From contig NZ_JACVPL010000006.1 of assembly GCF_018881925.1 (NCBI RefSeq), positions 62,001 through 126,000 on the forward strand: a stretch of 64,000 nt of DNA, in the 5' to 3' direction. A program made the translations under genes and the position numbers. The notes under the pieces are model-generated. The model was given only the letters and a program-made list of their open reading frames with translations, was not told where the DNA came from and ran no database searches. This DNA comes from Polynucleobacter sp. Latsch14-2. GTDB taxonomy: Bacteria > Pseudomonadota > Gammaproteobacteria > Burkholderiales > Burkholderiaceae. Of the stretch, positions 46,241-52,287 are shown piece by piece; the stretch's first letter is position 1, and each line of letters starts with the position of its first letter.

Positions 46241-46513
46241 ATGGCACGCATGGTTCAATGCATCAAGCTCAATAAAGAAGCCGAAGGTTTAGATTTCGCC
46301 CCGCTCCCCGGCGACTTGGGTAAAAAGCTTTGGAATCAAGTTTCCAAAGAGGCATGGGCAGCTTGGCTCAAGCAACAAACGATGTTGATCAATGAGAACC
46401 GCTTGAATATGGCTGATCCACGTGCACGCCAATACCTACTCAAGCAAGTTGAAAAGTATTTCTTCGAAGGTGGTGCAGATACAGCTCAAGGGTACGTCCC
46501 CACAGCAGAGTGA
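46241..46513 (+). CDS. yggX: Oxidative damage protection protein / probable Fe(2+)-trafficking protein
   Basis: A 90-residue YggX-family protein that in enterobacteria protects Fe-S clusters from oxidative damage and may handle Fe(II). It is near-complete in family motifs: [59 protein letters not shown] and [14 protein letters not shown]. The single conserved Cys is Cys7. AGAAAGG precedes the ATG at suitable spacing. The stop lies inside the arm of a large hairpin (46512-46560). A structured RNA gene follows. Confidence 0.95.
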
Positions 46514-46560
46514 ATGCCGCACTCACACAATTGATCTAACGCAATTAGAGTGGTGCATTC
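46512..46560 (+). repeat. Long imperfect hairpin at end of yggX
   Basis: A 49-base inverted repeat begins in the yggX stop codon. It pairs GAATGC (46512-46517) with GCATTC (46555-46560), CACTC (46520-46524) with GAGTG (46548-46552), and AATTG (46529-46533) with CAATT (46542-46546), leaving an 8-base loop. There is no clean T tract after it, so it is either a weak terminator or an mRNA 3'-end stabiliser. Confidence 0.6.
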
Positions 46561-46583
46561 TGAATATATATTTTCAACTTATG

Positions 46584-46612
46584 TTGACTTAGAGAATTCA
46601 GAAGCATAGGAT
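46584..46612 (+). promoter_or_regulatory. Sigma70-type promoter for structured RNA
   Basis: TTGACT (46584-46589) and TAGGAT (46607-46612) are separated by exactly 17 bases. The predicted transcription start is about 46619-46621. No start codon with a ribosome site and credible frame follows; the product appears to be the RNA at 46619-46783. Confidence 0.7.
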
Positions 46613-46618
46613 TGAACT

Positions 46619-46783
46619 GTAGGTTAACAGTTGTAGTGTTGCCCTGCATTGGCGAAAGCCACTTCTGATAAGTGCATCTATGCGCTTATAGGCATCGGAA
46701 CAAATTACCTTCCGATTGTCTGAGCCATGTTCAGCATGGCAAACAGACCCGATGGGAGATTCATTCCCCCGTCGGGTTTTTTT
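46619..46783 (+). ncRNA. Unannotated structured small RNA, about 165 nt
   Basis: Between a sigma70-type promoter and a strong terminator lies a non-coding stretch with four further hairpins: TGGC-GAAA-GCCA (46650-46661, GNRA tetraloop); ATAAGTGCA-TCTA-TGCGCTTAT (46668-46689, nine pairs with one G-T); ATCGGAA/TTCCGAT with a 9-base loop (46694-46716); and GTCTG-A-GCCATG-TTCAG-CATGGC-AAA-CAGAC (46718-46748). It fits no common RNA I know: no long single rod as in 6S, no SRP, RNase P or tmRNA signatures. A Rfam entry named Polynucleobacter-1 exists and should be compared; I cannot confirm identity. It is flanked by yggX (+) and rpiA (-), so it is not a leader of either gene and probably acts in trans. 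Confidence 0.65.
46748..46783 (+). terminator. Rho-independent terminator of structured RNA
   Basis: CCCGA-T-GGG pairs with CCC-CCG-TCGGG across an AT-rich loop and is followed by seven T residues (46777-46783). It points in the + direction and lies just beyond the rpiA stop. Confidence 0.85.
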
Positions 46784-46785
46784 AA

Positions 46786-47472
46786 TTAGAGGATGAGCCG
46801 CACAACTCCGGCAGTATTACTCACCAGCAGAATATTGGCCCTCTCTTTAGCAAACAAGCCAACAGTAATCACGCCCGCAATTTGGTTGATTTGAGACTCC
46901 ATACTTAAGGGGTTCGAGATGCTTAGACCGGCAACGTCCAAAATCCAGCCACCGTTATCCGTAACAAATGGTTCCTGCGCGCTTTTTGCCAATCTTAATG
47001 AAACCTTCCCGCCAAATTTCTCTAGCTCTCTAGTCACAACACCCTGCGCCAAAGGGATAATTTCAACAGGCAAAGCAAAGGCACCCAAAACAGAAACTTG
47101 TTTCGAGGAATCGCAGATACAAATAAATTGCTTAGCCATCGAGGCAATGATTTTCTCGCGAGTCAAAGCGCCACCACCACCCTTAATCATGTTACCCAAA
47201 GAGTCAATTTCATCTGCACCATCAACATATGCAGGCAAGCCATTTACATCATTTGGATTGAGCACCTTAAAACCATGTTTTAGCAAACGCTCTGTAGTGG
47301 CATTAGAGCTTGAGACCGTCCCAGAAAAATGGGCTTTATAGGGCGCCAGAGCATCGATAAAACAATTGACCGTTGAGCCGGTCCCAATACCGAGAACTTG
47401 ACCCGAGGCAAGCTTGAGTACCTCATCACGAGCTGCCTCTCCCACCATTTTTTTTAATTGATCCTGATTCAT
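46786..47472 (-). CDS. rpiA: Ribose-5-phosphate isomerase A
   Basis: A 228-residue enzyme of the pentose phosphate pathway that interconverts ribose-5-P and ribulose-5-P. Motifs: LGIGTGSTVNCFIDAL (about 26-41), the catalytic DGADEID (about 85-91), and KGGGGALTREKI (about 96-107) with catalytic Glu and Lys. The start at 47472 (MNQDQLKKMVGEAARDEV) gives the family N-terminus; the longer in-frame ORF to 47628 overlaps the divergent tal gene and is rejected. It is divergent from transaldolase, a partner in the same pathway, with about 97 bases between starts for shared control. Confidence 0.96.
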   Translation of the reverse strand: MNQDQLKKMVGEAARDEVLKLASGQVLGIGTGSTVNCFIDALAPYKAHFSGTVSSSNATTERLLKHGFKVLNPNDVNGLPAYVDGADEIDSLGNMIKGGGGALTREKIIASMAKQFICICDSSKQVSVLGAFALPVEIIPLAQGVVTRELEKFGGKVSLRLAKSAQEPFVTDNGGWILDVAGLSISNPLSMESQINQIAGVITVGLFAKERANILLVSNTAGVVRLIL

Positions 47473-52200: not shown

Positions 52201-52287
52201 GCCCAGATGGCGAAATTGGTAGACGCACCAGCTTCAGGTGCTGGCGATCGTAAGGTTGTGGAGGTTCGAGTCCTCTTCTGGGCACCA
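52201..52287 (+). tRNA. tRNA-Leu (anticodon CAG)
   Basis: An 87-nt type II tRNA with encoded CCA. The acceptor arms GCCCAGA and TCTGGGC pair fully. The anticodon stem CCAGC/GCTGG encloses TTCAGGT, giving anticodon CAG. A variable arm follows, then the T-loop GGTTCGAGTCC. It marks the border between core genes and the catabolic cluster downstream. Confidence 0.97.

Follow-up and report, generated by a model that had tools for sequence, protein, structure and literature searches.

Between yggX and the convergent rpiA, the window analysed here, a 64,000-nt stretch of the Polynucleobacter sp. Latsch14-2 genome, probably (at about 0.68 by our estimate) holds a stand-alone gene for a non-coding RNA of approximately 165 nt that acts in trans and occurs in part of the genus Polynucleobacter. 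The stand-alone reading is drawn from a conserved promoter and from copies at other genomic sites that keep both the promoter boxes and the fold. By its place, orientation, six stems and genus, as these are described in PMC8632094, the RNA is the HRC-28-1 motif. The motif has been known since 2021; what we add is the conservation of its promoter, its distribution, relocated copies, covariation and absences.

The RNA is organized as a row of six hairpins, the last of which is an intrinsic terminator, behind a sigma70-type promoter with its −35 box TTGACT at 46584–46589, a 17-nt spacer and its −10 box TAGGAT at 46607–46612 (Table 1). The upstream gene is yggX, which we take to be identical with PRK05408. 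Two bases separate the T7 run at 46777–46783 from the rpiA stop codon (46786–46788, complement), and rpiA may use the same terminator from its own side. A preliminary description had placed a structured RNA at 46584–46783, served by a promoter and a terminator of its own, with four hairpins before the terminator, no credible open reading frame (ORF) in about 165 nt and no role as a leader of rpiA or tal. This picture holds in the sequence, with P1 now added as a fifth hairpin. The ORF list contains no credible ORF in the 165-nt region, and among 62 distinct sequences the longest ORF shifts position and the lengths (147–168 nt, with 155–160 nt represented throughout) do not change by threes, so that the RNA looks non-coding. 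Our covariance model R1 matches the window's copy at 108619–108782 of contig C41 with 155.1 bits; this genome (2.34 Mb, 50 contigs) holds one match to the RNA.

Table 1. Features of the yggX–rpiA locus in window coordinates
Feature	Position	Strand	Basis
yggX (Fe(2+)-trafficking / oxidative damage protection protein)	46241..46513	+	ORF list; Pfam Iron_traffic PF04362, E 1.3e-41
sigma70-type promoter TTGACT-N17-TAGGAT	46584..46612	+	read in sequence; promoter scan; conservation
structured RNA gene (HRC-28-1 motif)	46619..46783	+	fold z; model R1 match; covariation; 5′ end placed from the promoter position
P1 hairpin, 7-nt loop	46619..46647	+	covariation; unconstrained folds
P2 hairpin UGGC-GAAA-GCCA	46650..46661	+	covariation; unconstrained folds
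P3 hairpin, nine pairs, 4-nt loop UCUA	46668..46689	+	covariation; folds
P4 hairpin, 5+6 pairs, 9-nt loop	46690..46721	+	fold; covariation
P5 hairpin, seven pairs	46724..46740	+	covariation; folds
intrinsic terminator hairpin (46745–46779) plus T7	46745..46783	+	sequence, alignment, folds
rpiA (ribose-5-phosphate isomerase A), convergent	46786..47472	−	Pfam PF06026, E 7.9e-55; start taken as ATG 47472, longer frame in ORF list

By motif alone the promoter is weak: the promoter scan picks TTGACT-N17-TAGGAT with 9 of 12 consensus bases, and finds 2 sites in the 701-base region where 1.0 is expected. The RNA's terminator is missing from the output of the terminator scan; the interrupted stem of the window's copy is presumably the reason. 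Both doubts, which come from scans of one sequence, are settled by conservation across 30 aligned copies, the best 30 of the 60 genomes matched by blastn. TTGAC-N16/17-TAGGAT is invariant in all 30, the conserved block opens at the −35 box, and the hairpins and terminator are likewise conserved, with variable spacer and upstream DNA. Among 61 loci from an exact-pattern scan, a collection that shares strains with our set of 101 genomes, 58 fit TTGAC-N-TA(G/A)GAT by regular expression, with spacers of 17 (47 loci) or 16 (11 loci); the remaining three carry TAGCAT, as read by eye. The distance from the yggX stop to the −35 box varies between 14 and 74 nt in 34 loci. In those same loci we found no conserved terminator between yggX and the promoter, so that transcription may continue from yggX into the RNA, which might then double as the 3′ end of yggX. 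Directly behind yggX in the window lies an imperfect inverted repeat (46513–46566) and, after it, an A/T-rich stretch; by eye, none of 33 other loci shows a conspicuous repeat of this kind.

The window's copy has a minimum free energy of −71.9 kcal/mol, compared with −43.2 ± 4.1 for 200 shuffled sequences, none of which is as low (z −7.07). RNAalifold, run on the sequence-only alignment of 30, gives 47 pairs, of which 13 show changes in both partners. In a wider alignment of 62 distinct sequences, which is fitted to R1 and therefore leans towards structure in the covariation test, 98.6% of cells pair and double changes occur in 33 of the 47 pairs (253 cells), with 0 of 500 shuffles reaching any of five measures. 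The covarying pairs that the preliminary description had proposed to look for across Polynucleobacter are thus present in both alignments. Unconstrained folds of 63 sequences recover a mean of 95.3% of the consensus pairs, and the commonest base is on average more frequent in paired than in unpaired columns (0.874 versus 0.776). The sequence evidence shows six consecutive hairpins that are selected for pairing. Loop letters differ between lineages, and divergent copies build P2 from other stems and loops, such as UGGUA-GCAA-UACCA; a GNRA tetraloop was accordingly rejected as a strict feature of P2. A loop–loop pairing between P1 and P3, assessed by eye only, was inconsistent and was dropped.

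Rfam 15 places no family on the RNA at gathering threshold, either in a search of the whole window or at eight loci that include divergent copies; the sole match at that threshold across the window is a tRNA gene at 52201–52284 (+). A permissive search of 46500–46850 (E up to 10) gives seven matches, all far below their thresholds. The best by E-value, anti-hemB (RF02837; E 0.14, 16.9 bits against a cut-off of 49.5), covers 46711–46785 only, and the best by score, sraA (RF02029), has 17.9 bits (E 2.8) against a cut-off of 56 bits. The RNA resembles 6S RNA in length, stable fold and its stand-alone gene, but 6S RNA forms one long rod and not six hairpins in a row. No match to 6S (RF00013) appears on it at the gathering or the permissive setting, and the genome has its own 6S gene elsewhere (C40:92209–92427, 60.7 bits). 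That the RNA is neither 6S nor another Rfam family agrees with the preliminary description, which had also suggested a relation to Polynucleobacter-1 or, failing that, a new RNA. The first suggestion finds no support, as Polynucleobacter-1 (RF01718) is absent at gathering threshold and among the seven matches at E up to 10. That motif is described from Burkholderiales of fresh water and estuaries (Weinberg et al. 2010, PMC2864571), so that its hosts overlap with those of our RNA, with no Rfam match between the two. The second gives way to the publication of HRC-28-1.

HRC-28-1 was described from 33 examples, mostly in Polynucleobacter, with six stems of which the last is an intrinsic terminator, and most often with a PRK05408 gene on one side and rpiA, in opposite orientation, on the other (Brewer et al. 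2021, RNA Biol 18:2417, PMC8632094). Each of these features is found here: the RNA lies between yggX and the opposite rpiA, both identified by Pfam (Table 1), it has six stems ending in an intrinsic terminator, and its strong matches in the genomes sampled are confined to Polynucleobacter. In the literature searched, no other paper names HRC-28-1, and the main texts of two published expression studies of P. asymbioticus do not mention small or non-coding RNA. RNA-seq reads of P. asymbioticus QLW-P1DMWA-1 are public (PRJNA523328, PMC6629928).

Within the genus, blastn finds the RNA in 60 of 101 genomes and R1 in 65, with a best match per genome of at least 40.5 bits; further R1 matches within genomes reach at most 23.6 bits, most of them being the same terminator read on its other strand. 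Among the carriers is G026, with the RNA at C1:1332471–1332627. The RNA lies 53–118 nt from the yggX match in 59 carriers out of 65; in one (G022) it is cut by the end of the contig, beside rpiA, and in five (G011, G054, G063, G069 and G097) it lies elsewhere and the yggX–rpiA gap is just 36–106 nt. The other 36 genomes have no R1 match, and yggX is present in 35 of them, that of G093 being a fragment. Where both genes were found together, their gap in these genomes is at most 125 nt, with the exception of G032 (10,445 nt), a count that leaves out G070 (neither gene found) and G093 (no rpiA match). The preliminary description had raised the case of relatives that lack the hairpins; such relatives exist in these 36 genomes, but wherever the gap could be measured the whole block is missing and not the hairpins alone. 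With a wider model, R2, six of these 36 genomes match weakly (18.8–22.7 bits), and the one match inspected, in G088, is a terminator in the gap.

Beyond the genus we see no strong copy in the genomes sampled. In a family sample of 398 genomes, all R1 matches above 40 bits fall in Polynucleobacter, and weak matches (E up to 0.1) occur in 32 genomes of eight other genera, the best at 29.0 bits. In an order sample of 399 genomes, R2 matches five genomes outside the genus at 25.8–35.2 bits. In their alignments the terminator is conserved and other parts are deleted; the best of them (L105) lacks P3 and inner P4 and has a shortened P1. We take the five as probable chance matches rather than distant relatives. 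The exact pattern, which was derived from the alignment and detects close copies only, finds 61 stretches in genomes of named species, labelled Polynucleobacter, Burkholderiaceae or beta-proteobacterial. The RNA was not found in phages and plasmids by blastn or in viral contigs by exact pattern.

Nine copies lie away from yggX, so that a place downstream of this gene is not a constant feature of the RNA: the five named above and four from the family sample (G407, G289, G277 and G412), with R1 scores of 40.5–106 bits. By eye, all nine have TTGAC with a TAGGAT, TAAGAT or TAGCAT box upstream, and each also carries a hairpin resembling a terminator, whose T-tract is weak in G011 and G097 (L081 and L082). 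Five of these copies (L078, L079, L081, L082 and L083) each fold into six hairpins without constraint. In six of the nine (G069, G063, G054, G407, G289 and G277) the start of the ORF immediately upstream resembles that of a PIN-domain protein, and the G063 protein matches PF13470 (Pfam); in G412 a PIN-like ORF lies farther upstream, with another ORF intervening. A convergent ORF follows in six of these seven PIN-site copies, matching PF03364 (Pfam) in G063 and not listed in the locus of G054. The RNA adjoins azlD (PF05437) in G011 and lies among other genes in G097. Four kinds of site are thus occupied: the yggX–rpiA gap, the vicinity of a PIN-domain gene, the side of azlD, and another in G097.

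We placed the RNA on a tree of 84 genomes, built from argA, yggX and rpiA by a quick method, in which 35 of 81 inner branches have support under 80 and long branches are flagged as meeting at the base; its gap-located rows are a chosen set of carriers, and the PIN-site genomes G407, G289, G277 and G412 were left out. The gap-located RNA falls in a single crown clade. Of the 50 rows of this clade, 44 have the RNA in the gap, one has it elsewhere (G011) and five are without it (G065, G079, G082, G088 and G434). Three PIN-site genomes cluster with two no-match genomes in one clade, G097 belongs to a clade of seven genomes of which six are without the RNA, and 22 rows of deeper lineages are without it. 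Scanned with R2, the five crown genomes gave, among the candidates scored, weak, terminator-like matches only: those of G065, G079 and G082 (15.6–17.2 bits) resemble terminators that follow a coding gene which the three share, and that of G434 spans the yggX end and a terminator. As these scans score part of the candidates (150 of about 300 for G065, G079 and G082), very divergent copies could escape them. In the yggX–rpiA gap of G434 (L091), a terminator very like the RNA's own stays in place, as if the body of the RNA had been deleted.

The five crown-clade genomes, each a single contig, thus appear to be without the RNA. Their absences suggest that the cell can probably do without the RNA and that it has probably been lost on more than one occasion; from the tree alone, gain and loss cannot be told apart. 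Because such close single-contig relatives appear to lack it, we regard the RNA as an accessory regulator and not a housekeeping RNA.

HRC-28-1 was published without a function and filed as a likely 3′-UTR, its authors suggesting a possible 3′-UTR element of the upstream gene (PMC8632094). In this reading the RNA would be a structured end of the yggX mRNA that stabilizes or terminates the transcript, or is cut out of it. Its proximity to yggX in 59 of 65 carriers and the lack of a conserved terminator between the two agree with this proposal. We nevertheless consider it improbable, as a conserved promoter sits between yggX and the RNA, the nine copies among other genes retain promoter boxes, and 35 of the 36 no-match genomes have yggX but not the RNA. 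Taken with the more divergent members, the conserved promoter and the relocated and missing copies favour a separate gene, and the 3′-UTR interpretation, as given in that paper, should probably be revised. The sensible experiment shifts accordingly, from a study of yggX mRNA to deletion and pull-down of the free RNA, and the question is made testable by the RNA's natural presence in some close single-contig relatives and absence from others.

We considered two further explanations. The RNA could serve only as a strong bidirectional terminator, or as an insulator, where the two genes converge, its hairpins being by-products, as the closeness of the T-run to the rpiA stop codon and the similar terminator retained in G434 might suggest. 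We give this hardly any credence, given that the five further hairpins covary, the promoter is conserved and five relocated copies fold into all six hairpins. The four kinds of site could also point to a mobile or phage-borne element carried as cargo, which is very unlikely in view of the single strong copy per genome (one match in the window's own), the searches of phages, plasmids and viral contigs that found nothing, and the shared site of 59 of the 65 carriers.

For the stand-alone gene that we prefer, the housekeeping sigma factor would transcribe the RNA constitutively, probably in quantity, and the free RNA would act in trans as a folded molecule, showing short loops to a partner: the 7-nt P1 loop, the pyrimidine-rich P3 tetraloop and the 8–9-nt P4 loop. 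Counting against this gene are the possible read-through from yggX, the 36 of 101 genomes without a match, the decayed copy of G188 and the weak T-tracts of two relocated copies. One form of this same reading, whose odds overlap with those of the whole, is an antisense-type sRNA with P1 or P4 loops that pair with mRNA start regions, helped by Hfq. The Hfq gene in the genome, the U-rich terminator tail and the exposed 7- and 9-nt loops make this a real, if minority, possibility, to be set against loop letters that vary between lineages. No long conserved single-stranded stretch was seen in the aligned copies. As such an unpaired seed was not seen and conservation is higher at paired than at unpaired positions, we lean slightly towards a protein partner or an RNA chaperone over direct pairing with mRNA alone. 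More tentatively still, the RNA might represent a new class, an autonomous, protein-binding six-hairpin regulator of one Polynucleobacter branch, moved several times as a whole promoter-to-terminator unit and lost repeatedly; we hold this doubtful.

Individual copies show further variation. The P4 internal loop of gap copies (for example, L013) has UAA opposite GAG(A) in many cases, resembling the UAA/GAN loop motif, and Watson–Crick pairs in others. The lowest recovery of consensus pairs (5 of 42, z −2.7) is in the copy of G188 (L088, 3145–3291 (−)), the one among 11 representatives with inspected folds in which hairpins are lost. Its terminator is shortened, P3 and P5 are mismatched, and the ORFs at the hrpA and tal places are likewise broken up, as in a degrading genome; this copy looks decayed. 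In P. necessarius PPGSP2, presumably a ciliate endosymbiont, the nearby hrpA and tal ORFs look truncated, and the RNA and its promoter look intact (L166, LT606947.1, 3050–3330).
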